The position numbers and the translations under genes were made by a program. Shown one piece after another: positions 15,963 to 22,457 of a DNA stretch of 24,922 bases; position 1 is the first letter of the stretch; the number at the start of each line of letters is the position of its first letter. Location: IMG/VR virus record IMGVR_UViG_3300033233_000157, positions 1 to 24,922 of that record. One strand, 5' to 3'. The notes under the pieces were generated by a model. The model was not told the DNA's origin, made no database searches, and saw only the letters and a list, made by a program, of their open reading frames with translations. This DNA is from a virus.

Positions 15963-16994
15963 CTATCCGTTGGTTATTAAGCGTGCGATGCGAATGTTCT
16001 TTGTCAGGTACACCTGTGTCCAGTTGTCGGCTGCAAGGTCTGAATCAGACGGTGAAACCTTCCCCGACAACGAACCGACGTACTTGATCCCGCGCGGATG
16101 GAGCAAGAAATACCGGCGTGATATGATATCCACCTGACCGGAGCCTGTGCCTTTCAACGGTTGACGGTACACCTCAAGGTTCGGATCACCCGATTCTAGA
16201 GGAATATCTGTACGGGCAAATGCACCCTGACCGAAGAGGAACGTGGAATACTTCGTGCCAGAGGTTGAGCCTGCGGCGGTTGTGATATTGTCATCCACCA
16301 ACACGCGAAGACCCATATAGGTAGAGATGGGGGCCGCGTTCTGCTGTGAACTTGGCACTGTCTCAACCAAATCCAAAGACCGCATCCGTTTGAATACGGT
16401 GCTATGGACGATAATCGCCGTCAGCTTATCATAGGCATCGCCCAAGAGAAAGCGTGTGTCCTCAACTGCCGCTGAGCTGATGAGTTTCGCCGGGTCGGTC
16501 GTCGCGACCTCACCCGAAATATCATTCGAGAGAGCTGCCGCAACTGTTGCATCCGCGAAAATCCCAGTAAGAGTTTTCAGCGTCAATCGTTGTTCCTCAC
16601 GAGCCCACCAAGTTGCAAAACGGCTGATGATAAGCCCCGCCGGATCGCCGCCTGATGTGTAACGAATAACCGGCGCGAATGAGAAAGACTGCGTGCGAAA
16701 GTTCTTCACCGCAACATCCTTATCACTCGTCAATCCGTGTGGTGTGATTGAATCATCCGTATCGGTCGCGACCTTTGAAACGTCCGTCGTTCCCTGTACG
16801 TTATGTGAAAGATCATCCCAGAAAGGCATATCGACCGTTCGCCCACCCTGAGCTGCGGCTGCCTCGATTTCCGGGTTTGTTGCCGCGATGCCCGATTGAA
16901 CGAGCAGGTTCTTAGCGGTCGTCTCTTCGAGGAAAGCCCTACTCCAAATAGCCGGCTCGAATACATCTGTAATTGCTGTTACGAGTGCTGCCAT
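15963..16994 (-). CDS. Major capsid protein, gp13-like HK97 fold, 343 aa
   Basis: This forms the procapsid shell. Evidence: position immediately after the scaffold gene, and the pattern of the gp13-like capsid family: an N-terminal 'DVFEPAIWSRAFLEETTAKN' helix, then 'GGRTVDMPFWDDLS', a TSDKDVAVKNF strand, 'RFATWWAREEQRLTL' spine helix, and a C-terminal 'RRYFLLHPRGIKYVG' beta segment. Length is usual. AGGAG lies 9 bases before the ATG. No N-terminal cleavable delta domain and no prohead protease in the window agree with separate scaffold use. Confidence 0.88.
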   Translation of the reverse strand: MAALVTAITDVFEPAIWSRAFLEETTAKNLLVQSGIAATNPEIEAAAAQGGRTVDMPFWDDLSHNVQGTTDVSKVATDTDDSITPHGLTSDKDVAVKNFRTQSFSFAPVIRYTSGGDPAGLIISRFATWWAREEQRLTLKTLTGIFADATVAAALSNDISGEVATTDPAKLISSAAVEDTRFLLGDAYDKLTAIIVHSTVFKRMRSLDLVETVPSSQQNAAPISTYMGLRVLVDDNITTAAGSTSGTKYSTFLFGQGAFARTDIPLESGDPNLEVYRQPLKGTGSGQVDIISRRYFLLHPRGIKYVGSLSGKVSPSDSDLAADNWTQVYLTKNIRIARLITNG

Positions 16995-17008: not shown

Positions 17009-17027
17009 GGCGGTCTAATTCACCGCC
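17009..17027 (-). other. GC-rich hairpin between scaffold stop and capsid ribosome binding site
   Basis: On the minus strand GGCGGT (17027-17022) and ACCGCC (17014-17009) flank a 7-base loop that contains the scaffold gene's TAG. The AGGAG of the capsid gene starts right after the stem. No U-tract follows. It could protect or separate the capsid message. Confidence 0.55.
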
Positions 17028-17701
17028 GTTACCTTGAGTTTCTCTGCCAACTCAGGATTTTCTTTCTGAATCTTGATCTGCGTTGTCAAATTCTTTGTGG
17101 AGCGACTAAATGGATTGTTGGTTGCATACTCTCTGAGTGCTGGGTCTGGACTCTCGCCTCCGGCGTGCTCCTGACCAACGATAACTGTTGTGCCGAACAT
17201 CCCCGCAAAGGCTTTATTCTCCTTGATCGGCTTCAACTGATCCAAGAATCCCTTCGGCACACCCGCCTCATCAAGTTCCATCTTCTCGATGTCGAACTTG
17301 AGAGCGAGTAAGTTCCTTGCTTCCGGGTCTCCTACACCGGCATTCATCAGGGCTTCCTTGAGTGCAAAGGTTTTCTTCGTCCTTAACTGACTTGCATCCG
17401 CCTCTTCCTTTGCAGCCTTGTTCGCCCTCTGAAGGTCTGTGATCTGAGTTTGTAGTGTCACATTCCCAGCCGCAGCATCCTTCAGCGTCTTCAGGTCGTT
17501 CTCATTCTTTGCTATCAATTCCTTCGCAGCCTTCAACGCTTCGTTCTTCTCGTTGAACTCACTCTTTGGCACATGCGTCGTTGCATCACCAAGAATGAGT
17601 TTTGTGCTGCCAAGTTTCGTAACGATCTGTTTGACTAATTCATCCGCGCTTGCACTGACCTTGCCGGCCAATTCCTCGCCCAAAATCTCCTTGAGTTCCA
17701 T
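17015..17701 (-). CDS. Capsid scaffold protein, GP20-like, 228 aa
   Basis: Scaffolds guide capsid assembly and are then lost. The protein fits the GP20 minor structural/scaffold family: an N-terminal helical head (MELKEILGEELAGKV), 'HVPKSEFNEKNEALKAAKEL' followed by a coiled coil over about residues 50-105, a conserved 'FALKEALMNAGVGDPEARNL' segment, and the C-terminal 'NNPFSRSTKNLT' then 'KENPELAEKLK' capsid-binding-type end. It directly precedes the capsid gene. AAGGAG is 8 bases upstream of the ATG. Confidence 0.88.
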   Translation of the reverse strand: MELKEILGEELAGKVSASADELVKQIVTKLGSTKLILGDATTHVPKSEFNEKNEALKAAKELIAKNENDLKTLKDAAAGNVTLQTQITDLQRANKAAKEEADASQLRTKKTFALKEALMNAGVGDPEARNLLALKFDIEKMELDEAGVPKGFLDQLKPIKENKAFAGMFGTTVIVGQEHAGGESPDPALREYATNNPFSRSTKNLTTQIKIQKENPELAEKLKVTAVN

Positions 17702-17807: not shown

Positions 17808-18695
17808 TTACAATTCCATCATCTCTAACAACATCGCTACCGTCTCCTCGTCACCATCGGAGGATACAAAACCATCCATTTTCATTTGCCCGGCAAGCTG
17901 TTCAAAGGTCATCCGTCCCCTGATCTCTGGGGTAAGAACCAAACCCTCAGCTTGAAACTCATTCCCGGCTTGCTCAAATACAACCTTGCCGACAATCTCA
18001 GGTATCCGCGCTCGTCTGCGGGCAACTCTTTTCAACATCTCTGAGGCTATCTTTTCACCAGACTCTGTGAAACCGGCGGTTGAGGCAAAAACCTCTGCGC
18101 CAACGGCCTCTATCTTCTCCCCTGACTCGGTCAATCCAGCTATTGAGCTGAATATCTCTGAGGCTATTGAGGCTACCTTTTCACCGCTTTCCGTGATTGC
18201 CGCAGTCGAAGAGAATACTTCACTCACCGTTGCTGCAATCGCCTCGCCTGACTCTGTAAGAGTTGCGGTTGAAGCAAATATCTCCTGACCTGTTGCGGCT
18301 ATCGCTTCACCCGACTCAGTAAGACCAGCAGTCGAGGAGTAGATTTCCGCTCCAAGTCCTGCAATAGCCTCTCCCGACTCAGTCGATGCCCCCGTTGAAG
18401 CAAAGACTTCACTACCAATTACTGCTATCGCTTCCCCGGATTCAGTTAAAGCTGCTGTTGATGGGAAGACTTCCGAGGCCACACTTGCAACTGCTTCACC
18501 GCTTTCGGTGAACGGTGCTGAGGTTATAACAAATGTCAAAGAACCTTGTGCCGCTATTGCCTCACCGGATTCTGTAAAGGCTGCCGTGCCGGTGATGTCA
18601 TCCCCCCCACCACGCAATACAGTCGGGTCGCTGAGCTTTATGTCATTCGGATTGGCTTCGCCCTGATATAGAAATATGTCGTTAGGAACTGGCAT
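17808..18695 (-). CDS. Protein with nine 21-residue TESGEAIA repeats, 295 aa
   Basis: A 40-residue N-terminal piece (NDIFLYQGEANPNDIKLSDP) is followed by nine copies of a 21-residue unit, consensus TESGEAIAA.G.E.F.STA.L (residues 41 to about 218), then a basic segment (KRVARRRARIP) and two related beta units (VGKVVFEQAGNEFQAEGLV; RGRMTFEQLAGQMKMDGFV), ending in an acidic helix. DNA repeats have diverged at third positions. It starts 14 bp inside the upstream gene. No known family is recognised. The regular pattern suggests a rod-like or stacked solenoid. Located before the scaffold, it might be a head-associated or minor structural protein. Confidence 0.75.
   Translation of the reverse strand: MPVPNDIFLYQGEANPNDIKLSDPTVLRGGGDDITGTAAFTESGEAIAAQGSLTFVITSAPFTESGEAVASVASEVFPSTAALTESGEAIAVIGSEVFASTGASTESGEAIAGLGAEIYSSTAGLTESGEAIAATGQEIFASTATLTESGEAIAATVSEVFSSTAAITESGEKVASIASEIFSSIAGLTESGEKIEAVGAEVFASTAGFTESGEKIASEMLKRVARRRARIPEIVGKVVFEQAGNEFQAEGLVLTPEIRGRMTFEQLAGQMKMDGFVSSDGDEETVAMLLEMMEL
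18042..18575 (-). repeat. 63-bp coding tandem repeat array, nine units
   Basis: Nine units spaced 63 bp apart (the first is 66 bp) run from 18575 down to about 18042, each encoding TESGE(A/K). The period is a multiple of three and the units are well conserved in protein but not in DNA. Confidence 0.9.
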
Positions 18696-19152: not shown

Positions 19153-19731
19153 TTAGTTGTCCCCGTACACCCTTATCATTTCGCACTGGACAAGATTCGA
19201 CGCGTTGGAAGTGCCACAGGTCGCCGACAAAAACAGATACTGCGTCACGGAATTATCCACCGTCACCGTGAAAGCGGTATTGGCTGCGGGGATGCTATAC
19301 ACGCCGCCGGTAGCCGCAAGAGCTGTTCCGCCTCTGACAAATCCCATCATATCTAAAGTCAATCCCGTTGCGCCTGCCACGAGACCCTTACACATGATGT
19401 CCATTTCAACTTCAAATGGAGCCAGAGTCACACCGGAGCCTGCCGTGATTGCCGCGCTTGCTACCGCAACGCCAGCCGCCGACCAAGTAGCGGCAGTCAG
19501 GAGCCGAACAGTGAACGTAAATGTTGGAGTCCCGGTTGTACCGAGCCTGCCAGTCCATTTCGCGTGTATATTTTTACTCAAAGAACTGAGATTATAGAAA
19601 AACCCTGCCGGGATAATAATGGGAGGAAGGGTTTTTTGAAGGCTGTCCTCTGTCGTGAAGGTAGCCAACTGTGTCCCAACCGTGTGGGAACCATACAATA
19701 ACTCTACGCCGGTGCCTGTTAGAAAGCTCAT
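19153..19731 (-). CDS. Beta-rich structural protein, 192 aa
   Basis: The sequence is rich in Ala, Thr, Val and Gly, with a 'WTGRLGTTGTPTFTFTVRLL' strand, ANTAFTVTVDNSVTQYLFLS near the end and a closing 'VQCEMIRVYGDN' strand: the look of a jelly-roll capsid-associated or tail protein. AAAGGAG lies 7 bases before the ATG. Similar jelly-roll proteins occur in other phage head modules. No specific family named. Confidence 0.6.
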   Translation of the reverse strand: MSFLTGTGVELLYGSHTVGTQLATFTTEDSLQKTLPPIIIPAGFFYNLSSLSKNIHAKWTGRLGTTGTPTFTFTVRLLTAATWSAAGVAVASAAITAGSGVTLAPFEVEMDIMCKGLVAGATGLTLDMMGFVRGGTALAATGGVYSIPAANTAFTVTVDNSVTQYLFLSATCGTSNASNLVQCEMIRVYGDN

Positions 19732-19758: not shown

Positions 19759-20178
19759 TTATGCTCCCTGCATTGGACTTGTGCGAGTGTATGCCGAGCA
19801 ACTCACGGTCGCATTAGTTACAATATCAACGGCATTCAAAACGATATTCGATGTCGCCGTTCCTACCTCACCGTCACACAAAACCGTTGTGTGATCGGAC
19901 TGATAAATTCTGCACCACGTCGCGGTCTTGGTCGCTACCGCCGTTCCAGATACAATTGCATTAGCCGTTGCCACGCGAGCAACGGCAGCCGGAAATGCTG
20001 TCGCCGCAAAACGCAGGCTGACAATTAAAATCTGAGTAGTAATGGCAGTATCGGGCGTGGCTGGCTGACCTGTCCCGGTGCTGTCGTAAATATCAATCCA
20101 GCCCGAATCGAATAAAGCCTTTGTACTATCTAGCTTCGCATTGTCCAGCGTTAAGGATGTTCTTGTGTTGAGTGCCAT
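19759..20178 (-). CDS. Tandem paralog protein A, 139 aa
   Basis: It shares its layout with the next upstream gene: SGWIDIYDSTGTGQPATPDT versus SGYIRIYTGAQPATPETV, LRF...AF.AA, ATWCR / ASWCR, a 'TTVLCDGEVGT' or 'VTVLGDTT' motif, and a final LNA.DI..A. This belongs to a recurring phage head/structural protein family of unknown function with QPATP and WCR motifs. No signal peptide. GAAAGG lies 8 bases upstream of the ATG. Confidence 0.7.
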   Translation of the reverse strand: MALNTRTSLTLDNAKLDSTKALFDSGWIDIYDSTGTGQPATPDTAITTQILIVSLRFAATAFPAAVARVATANAIVSGTAVATKTATWCRIYQSDHTTVLCDGEVGTATSNIVLNAVDIVTNATVSCSAYTRTSPMQGA

Positions 20179-20183
20179 ACTTA

Positions 20184-20564
20184 TTACCTTTCCATTGCAA
20201 TCATGTCAATGAAACCAAGAATGCTCACCTTCGCCCCGACTTGTATGTCGGTTGAGTTCAAAGCTATCTTTGTTGTATCACCCAAGACCGTCACACCGTC
20301 AGAAGAAAGCACCCTACACCACGAGGCAAGCCCTGAGGCTACAGCCACACCCGGGGTGATCGGATTTGCAACTATGGCTCTATCGGAGGCGGCACTAAAG
20401 GCAGGGGAACCAAACCTGAGTTCAACCAAAAACCTCTGACCATCAAGAACCGTCTCTGGTGTGGCTGGCTGGGCCCCGGTGTAAATCCTGATATAGCCTG
20501 AATTAAAAAGGCTCGCTCCCGCGTTCAACTGTGTGTTCACCAATGTTATAGATGCTTTTGTCAT
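20184..20564 (-). CDS. Tandem paralog protein B, 126 aa
   Basis: See the downstream neighbour for the shared motifs. The similarity spans the full length with moderate identity, so this is an old tandem duplication. The ATG overlaps the upstream stop (ATGA). The C-terminus differs (ILGFIDMIAMER). Function unknown. Confidence 0.7.
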   Translation of the reverse strand: MTKASITLVNTQLNAGASLFNSGYIRIYTGAQPATPETVLDGQRFLVELRFGSPAFSAASDRAIVANPITPGVAVASGLASWCRVLSSDGVTVLGDTTKIALNSTDIQVGAKVSILGFIDMIAMER

Positions 20565-20896
20565 TCTGAAAATCCGGTTATCTGACCCCTACCATCCCGT
20601 TCGATCTTCATGGGTTTTCGCTTTGGTTGCTGGATTGTCACTCCAGGCACTGGAACCGTTACATTCACTGCTGTCTGAGGAAGGTCAACCCTCACCTCTG
20701 GCGTGGTTACATTGACCACCGGGGCTTGGCCTGGGGCTACATTCACAACTGGAGGCCGCATGGCAGCAACCGATGTAATCAAGTTCTTTAGCGCATCCTT
20801 AGTTTCTGACAAGGATACCAAGAGCCTATCGTTCTGGATAGTCTCATGCTTTCGACGTCCCCGCTCTAAGCGTAAGGCGATTATGTCAAGCTCCAT
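20561..20896 (-). CDS. Phage protein with Val/Pro-rich low-complexity middle, 111 aa
   Basis: A charged N-terminal helix (about residues 1-45, ALRLERGRRKHETIQ) leads to a Val/Asn/Pro-rich segment (VNVAPGQAPVVNVTTPEVRV) and a basic C-terminal motif KIERDGRGQITGF that is common at the ends of small phage structural proteins. The start lies 11 bp inside the portal gene's end. No family named. It may help anchor a protein to the portal or head. Confidence 0.55.
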   Translation of the reverse strand: MELDIIALRLERGRRKHETIQNDRLLVSLSETKDALKNLITSVAAMRPPVVNVAPGQAPVVNVTTPEVRVDLPQTAVNVTVPVPGVTIQQPKRKPMKIERDGRGQITGFSE

Positions 20897-22457
20897 TCAT
20901 CTCCGTATCCAATAGTTCCATTTGTAGTTTCAATTTCTCCTCATCCTTCAAACGCATCTCATTATCCTGCGCGTCAATCCTTGCCATCTCCTCATCCACG
21001 TCATCGACGTAGGGATGATTCTCTAAGATGGTCTGTTTAGAGAGCATGTCCTTACTGGCAATAAGCCCGTCGATCTTTTCCTTCTCATTGAATATCTGGC
21101 TCTTGTTCACGGTGAATATAATATCCTCTGAATAGTATTTCGTTCCCGTTGTTCTGTTCAACCACTCAACCACGAACCACACGAACCCACACAGCGACAC
21201 CTTGAGCTTCCTGATAAGCCGGTTTGCCTTCAAGTCCAGCGAAGCGTAGAGGAACTTGAGCGAGATACCCGATGGATTGTTGCCAAACTTGTCATTGTCA
21301 ACATCCACGCCCTCACCGAAGTAGAAGATTTCTCTGCGCGTGAGGTCCAGAAACTTATTCTTAGCCTCAAGCGGTATCTCGGCCTTCAATACACTGACAG
21401 CCCCCTCGGCCTCGACTGCGATGGCTTTGTTCAGTTTGAGATTTTGCATGAACAGAGCCAACTCTGAAAGGCCAGTCGATGTCTCACCCCGCAGTCCAGT
21501 AAAGCCCTTCAAAACGTATATCTGTTCTGCAAAGTCATCCAGGTCGTTGATCCACCCGGATTTTACTTTGTCGTAAGCATCCACCAGAGGCTTAATCGCT
21601 TGAAGGTCCGTATGCAACTGTGAGTTATTCCACAAAGCCACAAACGGCACACGCCCCCAGGAATTGGCACTCTTGACTGCCGGAGAGAGCGTGTTGAACG
21701 TCAGCCAATGTGGACATGGATTCAATTCATAATCCGGGTCGTGTACGAATTGACCTTCCTCTGTTTGAACCCAGTATTCTACTTCAGTCTTTGACCACCA
21801 CTCGACCTTGTATCTCTGTTGAGTTTTCCCGTCTTGGCTAATGAGGTCGAAGACGTAGAATCGTATTACATAGATAAGCTCGTTCTGGTATTGTGTATCG
21901 TACACCGGGATGATCTGTTCCGAAGGAACGACCATGAACTTCAACCGTCCTTTACCGTCAACATAGAAGTGTGTCCATTCGATTGACTTATTGGAGGCAC
22001 CTAACACCCAGTCATTCAGAAGGTCGTCAAAGCCCTCACCCAGTTGCTCAATCAATACGGTTTGGAACTCCTCGGCGGTAGATAACGACGCAGCCTCCGC
22101 TGATGTCGGGGCATTCTCATCGACCACATCGACCGAACCAACACTCACCACCACCGGATTGCCGACGATGTAGGATACCTTCTGATCAACAAGAATCTTA
22201 TGGAAGGGATGAGGCACTTTGTTGTTGGCCTTCACCAAGTCTTCCTGCCGTGCCCCGTCCACGTAGTAGTAATTTCTATGGTCAAGGATATCATGTCTTG
22301 AGTTGTAGTAATTCACCCCTTGAGCCATCCGCTGCTTCAGTGGCGAGGCCATATCTGACTGTATTAGGTCTTTGATGCGCGAACTGTCAATCGTGGCCCG
22401 GTCGGCCATGATCTTCAGATTGATAAGCTCGGTTACTGTAAGGAATCCTGTTGTCAT
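20886..22457 (-). CDS. Portal protein, SPP1 gp6-like, 523 aa
   Basis: The portal forms the dodecameric ring through which DNA enters and leaves the head. Its start contains the family signature near residues 45-95: MAQGVNYYNSRHDIL, then NNKVPHPFHKILVDQKVSYI and VGNPV. A later 'DLDDFAEQIYVLKGF' stem-like helix and a long acidic C-terminal helix are also typical. Length (523) is usual. It is coupled by ATGA (22454-22457) to a small upstream gene. Confidence 0.9.
   Translation of the reverse strand: MTTGFLTVTELINLKIMADRATIDSSRIKDLIQSDMASPLKQRMAQGVNYYNSRHDILDHRNYYYVDGARQEDLVKANNKVPHPFHKILVDQKVSYIVGNPVVVSVGSVDVVDENAPTSAEAASLSTAEEFQTVLIEQLGEGFDDLLNDWVLGASNKSIEWTHFYVDGKGRLKFMVVPSEQIIPVYDTQYQNELIYVIRFYVFDLISQDGKTQQRYKVEWWSKTEVEYWVQTEEGQFVHDPDYELNPCPHWLTFNTLSPAVKSANSWGRVPFVALWNNSQLHTDLQAIKPLVDAYDKVKSGWINDLDDFAEQIYVLKGFTGLRGETSTGLSELALFMQNLKLNKAIAVEAEGAVSVLKAEIPLEAKNKFLDLTRREIFYFGEGVDVDNDKFGNNPSGISLKFLYASLDLKANRLIRKLKVSLCGFVWFVVEWLNRTTGTKYYSEDIIFTVNKSQIFNEKEKIDGLIASKDMLSKQTILENHPYVDDVDEEMARIDAQDNEMRLKDEEKLKLQMELLDTEMNGA

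Follow-up and report, generated by a model that had tools for sequence, protein, structure and literature searches.

The repeat gene and its surroundings

The DNA analysed here, referred to as the window, is an entire viral record of 24,922 bases, which may itself be a fragment. As shown in Table 1, it carries a gene for a 295-aa protein with an array of short repeats. Upstream of this gene lie those of the terminase large subunit and the portal protein, a small gene, and the genes of two phrog_3758 proteins and of proteins of 192 and 156 aa, while the scaffold gene and then the major head protein gene follow downstream. The initial annotation of this DNA had placed the repeat gene just before the scaffold, and the next gene downstream is indeed that of the PF06810 scaffold; its description of the product as a head-module protein has this gene position as its sole basis. 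The small gene after the portal gene (20561-20896) gave no match in Pfam or PHROGs at E<=0.1, and a homologue (31%) is present in L011:2940-3374 (loci used for comparison are designated L plus a number).

Table 1. Features of the window in the vicinity of the repeat gene.
Feature	Position	Strand	Basis
Major head protein	15963..16994	minus	phrog_247, E=1.2e-78
Scaffold protein	17015..17701	minus	PF06810, E=2.7e-24
Leader-repeat protein ORF, 295 aa	17808..18695	minus	leader HMM match and translation
Acidic-hydrophobic C-terminal tail, residues 278-295	17811..17864	minus	loose rule; common among leader proteins
Two diverged beta-like repeats, residues about 234-277	17865..17996	minus	by eye from translation
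Array of nine TESGE units	18042..18575	minus	one 22- and seven 21-residue spacings, ninth unit truncated
Conserved leader, residues 6-25 (DIFLYQGEANPNDIKLSDPT)	18621..18680	minus	alignment A3 and leader HMM
Partner gene, 156 aa	18682..19152	minus	partner HMM built without the window, E=1.9e-21
192-aa module protein, A6 family	19153..19731	minus	joins A6 cluster
Garland-like protein 2	19759..20178	minus	phrog_3758, E=1.3e-18
Garland-like protein 1	20184..20564	minus	phrog_3758, E=2.7e-19
Portal protein, SPP1 gp6-like	20886..22457	minus	PF05133, E=3.8e-87

The 295-aa protein is composed, in this order, of a leader, a Gly-rich joint, the TESGE units, a basic stretch, two diverged units and an acidic-hydrophobic tail; the last two correspond to the two other beta repeats and the acidic end reported in the initial annotation. 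Nine in-frame TESGEAIA repeats had been claimed, and nine TESGE copies were found, starting at residues 41, 63, 84, 105, 126, 147, 168, 189 and 210 (from 18575 to 18068 in window numbering, in descending order). Successive copies are 22 residues apart at the first step and 21 at the seven that follow, and the ninth copy is cut short (TESGEKIA, followed by the basic stretch), which leaves eight full units and a stub. The units are rich in Ala, Ser, Thr and Gly, and the tandem-repeat period of the protein is 21 (z 23.7). Such an array was never reproduced by shuffling: the maximum TESGE count in 20,000 shuffles of the protein was one, and a DNA pattern for two TESGE motifs 21 residues apart matched seven times, as opposed to none in 100 dinucleotide shuffles.

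At the DNA level the copies have drifted far apart. Tandem Repeats Finder reported no array anywhere in the 24,922-nt window, and any two copies, with the stub included, agree at 25-43 of their 63 bases and at 7-15 of their 21 residues. Comparison of the seven full 21-aa copies gave a mean pS of 0.81 and a mean pN of 0.27, with pN lower than pS in all 21 pairs. Because the DNA has drifted and pN is consistently the lower value, the coding sequence indicates that the TESGE unit is old and maintained by selection at the protein level, in agreement with the selection for a repeat fold that had been read from the diverged DNA. The view that the protein belongs to no named family was likewise upheld by searches of Pfam and NCBIfam, which gave no match, and of PHROGs, in which phrog_38872 was matched alone (E=0.01).

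The leader family and its partner gene

The features by which the protein can be identified, a conserved leader and the partner gene immediately upstream, both lie outside the array and had been missed in the initial annotation. No hit was obtained with the repeat protein among phages at E<=0.01 or among plasmids at E<=0.1, nor in viral contigs searched by peptide patterns and by a repeat alignment. Relaxing the phage search to E<=10 returned five weak records, among them the environmental podophage record L031 (MW202691), the first relative, whose match lies near the leader (E=0.4). Its leader-protein gene is situated between a P22-like portal gene and the scaffold gene, and the gene preceding it resembles the one preceding the repeat gene of the window (E=0.02), which suggested a gene pair. 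Searches of viral contigs with the head protein and with the partner of the window gave no confirmed relative; the terminase search yielded 28 loci, several of them short, none with a strict leader or partner motif, and no phage record was found by tblastn with the phrog_3758 protein at 19759-20178.

DNA patterns designed on the leader identified nine members in 10 viral contig hits and one in four genome contig hits (L047), and a wider pattern added 11 more members, two of the contigs being near-duplicates. The hits in L036, L044, L045 and L046 were rejected as chance ones, the motif being not N-terminal or the protein not comparable. Alignment A3 (14 chosen sequences, window included) has invariant residues D6, L9, Y10, G12, P16, D18, L21, D23 and P24, and the window protein carries the leader consensus DhxLYxGxxxPxDhxLxDPT. 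When 10,083 ORF N-termini were searched with a leader HMM built without the window, 66 of them matched, one per locus (the loci supplying the seed HMM included), and the window protein was recovered at E=1e-16. The leader is thus common to dozens of environmental phage contigs, in which it is usually followed by repeats of approximately 20-22 residues of unrelated sequence. Leader-repeat proteins form an apparently undescribed phage family; a survey of titles and abstract openings, mostly of non-subscription papers, found no recognised description of the leader strings or of the idea.

The closest relative is encoded by L047, a Verrucomicrobia MAG, whose protein combines the leader with TGTAALTESPQTLAANGLEIF units. 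The repeat register is kept between the two proteins (42% identity over 182 residues, E=1e-33), which is the opposite of the disordered chain lacking a conserved register that had been set against a repeat fold. The L047 repeats also match Vibrio phage 367.14 (E=3e-10). In this phage (L032:5755-7383), a related 21-aa repeat (GQAAIDEQPDALTASGTLTNS) is present in about 14 copies after a different, AQDG-rich N-terminus, and a phrog_3758-like gene adjoins in an apparent baseplate cluster; no leader or partner motif was detected in the examined stretch.

Several variants of the architecture were observed. In L050:6803-7111 and L051:2986-3279 the leader is fused to a short non-repeat domain of about 70 aa. 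A tandem double leader (two hairpin-like motifs) stands ahead of the variable part in L031:8899-9933, and such double leaders are also present downstream of the partner in L074, L096, L098, L114, L118, L119 and L134. SAEAFG repeats come after the leader in L038:1182-3152; they match the minor tail protein phrog_13352 (E=3.2e-36), and leader rods therefore seem to be shared with tail proteins.

Removal of sequences at >80% identity left 63 distinct leader proteins, 61 of them after exclusion of two under 110 aa. Significant tandem repeats were present in 52 of these 61, in 46 cases at a period of 18-22 and in six at 42-49; the individual periods were 18 (one protein), 20 (13), 21 (18), 22 (14), 42 (three), 44 (two) and 49 (one). 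Among control ORFs the corresponding value was 6/150, with periods of 20-22 and 42, a rate that is probably too high, since other frames of repeat genes had not been purged and the six have the same periods. The acidic-hydrophobic tail, defined by a loose rule, was found in 36 of the 63 distinct leader proteins versus 50 of 735 control ORFs. Proteins with the leader carry roughly 3 to 13 repeat copies of unrelated sequence.

The partner and repeat genes have an overlap of 14 nt. Its product comprises a variable N-terminus and a conserved C-terminal domain similar to CarboxypepD_reg, with a GSPDVAG motif; where leader loci have enough DNA upstream, this domain bears the motif YxVAYKxGSPDVAGTTVNTL or a variant of it. 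The Pfam family CarboxypepD_reg (PF13620) matches seven of nine partners at E<=0.01. The partner of L052 passes the gathering score (35.6 bits) and that of the window falls below it (20.4 bits vs 32.3), so that on its profile score the latter is classed as CarboxypepD_reg-like and not as a member. Phage_tail_N (PF08400) matches one of the nine partners, that of L052, at 19.1 bits, under the gathering score of 26.6. The L052 partner also matches the tail fibre chain 9e7m_Ta (E=0.001; E=0.012 with the nine-partner profile), which we take to be the lambda side tail fibre, in line with the PF08400 match. The resemblance of the partner domain to the N-terminal domain of this fibre is weak. An unusual partner, encoded by L049:2078-3451, has about 340 additional residues beyond the conserved domain. 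Searches of 50,697 annotated phage records gave a partner match in a single one, itself an environmental genome.

The two genes are linked. Among the 100 partner loci with >200 nt downstream (a set that includes leader-found loci and near-duplicate contigs, e.g. L039/L043 and L052/L056), the leader protein directly follows the partner in 83, in 79 within -20 to +30 nt; gaps of -4, -1 and +1 are the most frequent, and that in L037 is 430 nt. In the reverse direction, a search pattern restricted to the partner motif retrieved 88 stretches, and of 80 new loci, 77 were evaluated (L092 and L104 were unmatched by the peptide expression and L093 has no downstream ORF); a leader was present downstream in 39 of them according to the seed HMM and in 60 according to the iterated HMM. 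The remaining 17 of the 100 partner loci have no leader protein next by the final HMM; weaker leaders are visible by eye in some of these (e.g. L078, L108 and L117), and clearly different genes follow in L099, L111, L112 and L126. Conversely, the leader loci lacking a partner match are L038 and L051 (DNA ends beside the leader), together with the chance hit L036. Further upstream, in the 72 loci with at least 2 kb of upstream DNA, an A6-family gene is found ahead of the partner in 51 and a phrog_3758 protein is encoded in 31.

Leader and partner are far better conserved than the repeats: mean identities were 38% (leader) and 41% (partner) over 73 pairs, from which only identical partner ends had been removed, as against 16% for the repeats (66 with a long enough repeat region). 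Leader distances correlate with partner distances (rho 0.27, reached by none of 500 permutations), while the repeats barely track the partner (rho 0.06, 40/500) or the leader (rho 0.06, 21/500), which argues that the rods are exchanged largely independently. Within the 48 loci that have an A6 gene, rho was 0.13 for leader and partner (14/500), 0.42 for A6 and partner (0/500) and 0.10 for A6 and leader (53/500). The weaker leader-partner and stronger A6-partner values mean that co-divergence is no proof of contact; it is the linkage, more than co-divergence, that suggests contact between leader and partner.

The leader-partner pair accompanies at least three types of head, i.e. SPP1-like, P22-like (according to the record annotation) and a fused protease-head protein (L041); L052, with a phrog_12 portal, and L050, with a phrog_1005 head protein, may represent further ones. 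In L009, whose head protein is the most similar to that of the window among the fetched loci (65.5% identity), 279 nt separate portal and scaffold (L009:3320-3598) and the whole module is missing there, nor was a leader or partner motif found in this 6.9-kb fragment. Judging from this locus, the leader-partner module would be accessory.

Predicted fold, proposed role and alternatives

AlphaFold2 modelling of five TESGE units with 15 aligned rows produced regular short strands in each unit (pLDDT 81.5, pTM 0.68), with two of the five models confident. The rows came from seven proteins, chosen since their 21-aa units can be aligned in a common register, and the folding alignment (A4) consists of non-overlapping blocks. 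Without an alignment the result was a poor helical model (pLDDT 45.8). The structure prediction proposed in the initial annotation as a check was thus beta-rich in the one case and poor in the other, and the fold depends on a single aligned prediction of an over-confident kind. As described in the available text of PMC11795689, AlphaFold2 yields confident, unrealistic solenoids for repeats; that study used perfect repeats, whereas the TESGE copies are diverged. In the A4 register the conserved Glu (second residue of TESGE) aligns with Leu in L035 and L042, and for this reason a buried stack of Glu residues is possible in the solenoid model, an implausible feature of the kind treated in the same work. 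Foldseek found no PDB or BFVD match for the repeat model at E<=0.001 (best PDB E 0.043, TMq 0.37). VIA-align gave Z values of up to 8.0, within the range that its note calls common, and beta helices of tailspikes and pectate lyases ranked among the top matches. The PDB comparisons point to beta helices, with no clear relative. Profile searches gave no convincing solved chain for the repeats, nor for the A6 family.

The explanation that we favour, with a probability of about 0.5, is that two genes encode a virion fibre or decoration and that the repeat protein makes up its shaft half. This protein very probably works with the partner, and it can be regarded with good confidence as a surface component of the virion. 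The leader, in which a Gly/Pro/Asn turn is flanked by two short stretches of hydrophobic residues, would probably form a beta hairpin that docks on the C-terminal domain of the partner, and the variable partner N-terminus would fix the two proteins to a particular virion. The repeats would stack into a beta rod pointing outwards, perhaps a solenoid in which each repeat makes one turn; from the model, a rod is rather likely, and its being a solenoid has slightly less than even odds. Phages would retain the dock and swap the rod, altering what is displayed on the virion surface. For the site of the protein, the head or portal vertex is the likeliest candidate, with about an even chance. Of the roles named in the initial annotation (a rod, a length ruler or a display module), a rod or display module fits best.

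The most serious alternative, which we consider less likely, is that the same two-part fibre is located at the neck, tail or baseplate and that its genes are merely kept in the head cluster, so that the garland-like proteins, partner and repeat shaft would form a collar or baseplate fibre. The profile of both phrog_3758 copies of the window matches the solved chains 44nx_B and 9rkv_A (E=1.5e-6 for garland-like protein 1, 20184..20564, vs 9rkv_A). The entry 9RKV contains tail fibres of the flagellotropic Agrobacterium phage 7-7-1, and 9rkv_A is a chain of 141 aa that, given its length and a profile match to gene 7-7-1_000103, we infer to be the garland protein. According to the available part of the 7-7-1 structure paper, which describes one garland protein, this protein forms homodimers arranged around the tail fibres, encircles the baseplate and binds short and long tail fibres (PMC12796354). 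With a solved relative of the garland-like proteins at the baseplate, the module may be a tail structure. In 7-7-1 the terminase subunit genes enclose the phrog_3758-like genes, even though the garland itself is found at the baseplate. As to their arrangement, the two paralogues (L060:2387-2812 and L060:3334-3765) flank a hypothetical gene and adjoin a putative tail fibre gene; the profiles made here gave no partner, A6 or repeat-array match in 7-7-1. A tail site is also favoured by Vibrio phage 367.14, in which the phrog_3758-like and related 21-aa repeat genes lie between genes that we read, in an unannotated record, as spike-like and baseplate-J-like, and by the L052 partner domain, which resembles tail-fibre proteins (phrog_3279, E=1.3e-5; 9e7m_Ta). 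However, the pair is also found between portal and scaffold of the P22-like podophage record L031, and garland-like genes are upstream in only 31 of the 72 loci.

It is still less probable that the solenoid model is an artefact and that the repeats serve as a spacer or brush that is flexible and for the most part unfolded. The Ala/Ser/Thr/Gly-rich composition, the known solenoid bias of AlphaFold2 (PMC11795689, as far as its available text goes) and the low confidence in three of the five models and in the single-sequence run are consistent with a spacer, but the unit is under purifying selection, its register is common to L047, and a period held tightly at 20-22 across unrelated sequences would be needless for a spacer. 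A length ruler, or an internal assembly factor set by repeat number, is very unlikely. The adjoining scaffold gene would suit such a function, yet it fits badly because the number of copies, unrelated in sequence, ranges from roughly 3 to 13 among proteins that share the leader; the near-total exchange of repeat sequence also argues against it, as does the close relative L009, in which the module is missing between the portal and scaffold genes. Finally, a recent functionless slippage array, with which only the tandem layout agrees, can practically be dismissed in view of synonymous sites near saturation, a conserved protein and the register in common with L047.

The two-gene fibre or decoration, if real, may belong to a broader plug-in system in uncultured phages, in which a short constant hairpin is joined by strand addition to a constant domain of the partner, whose translation immediately precedes its own, and phages with unrelated heads exchange beta rods built of any beta units of approximately 21 residues; we put this forward tentatively, as a rather doubtful extension. 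If true, a fixed plug and socket combined with freely exchanged rods would give different head lineages a natural platform for display in common. The short diagnostic signature allows joint annotation of seemingly unrelated repeat proteins of environmental phages (63 distinct ones here) and marks candidate surface fibres of possibly uncultured phages. The family also offers a test of how a single anchor can accommodate many rods, and of why units of about 21 residues are preferred regardless of sequence.

Comparison with known systems

Among the known repeat families, phrog_38872 weakly matches the arrays of the window (E=0.01), L047 (7e-5) and Vibrio phage 367.14 (1.4e-9), and the other leader proteins match different PHROGs or none. 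The minor tail repeats of phrog_13352 occur behind the same leader in L038, but their SAEAFG sequence differs from TESGEAIA. The lambda side tail fibre is weakly matched by the partner of L052, through the sub-threshold PF08400 match. A domain of this type is the N-terminal domain of the lambda fibre itself; the PF08400-like domain found here is, unlike that of lambda, the C-terminal domain of a separate partner protein.

The gp12 spike of SPP1 is a further point of reference: the repeat protein is likewise proposed to be an accessory virion protein, and the portal and head protein of SPP1 are related to those of the window. The repeat gene precedes the scaffold gene, unlike the gp12 gene, on what we take to be the SPP1 gene order. 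The gp12 capsid spike has been predicted to be collagen-like (PMC7602432, in its available text), whereas the translation of the window protein contains no Gly-X-Y run.

In the case of phage 7-7-1, the garland is a sequence relative of the two phrog_3758 proteins of the window and is placed at the baseplate; for the capsid fibres of this phage, the available part of the paper reports that no protein was identified (PMC12796354). The fibres of phi-crAss001 consist of gp21 (trimer) and gp29 (dimer), with gp36 as an auxiliary capsid protein, and the available description has the fibre carried by a short N-terminal segment (residues 1-38 or 1-58) that binds in a pocket of the capsid and auxiliary protein (PMC10172136). 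Compared by description, the present system would differ in its leader of about 20 residues, its CarboxypepD_reg-like companion and its shaft of repeats of approximately 21 residues.
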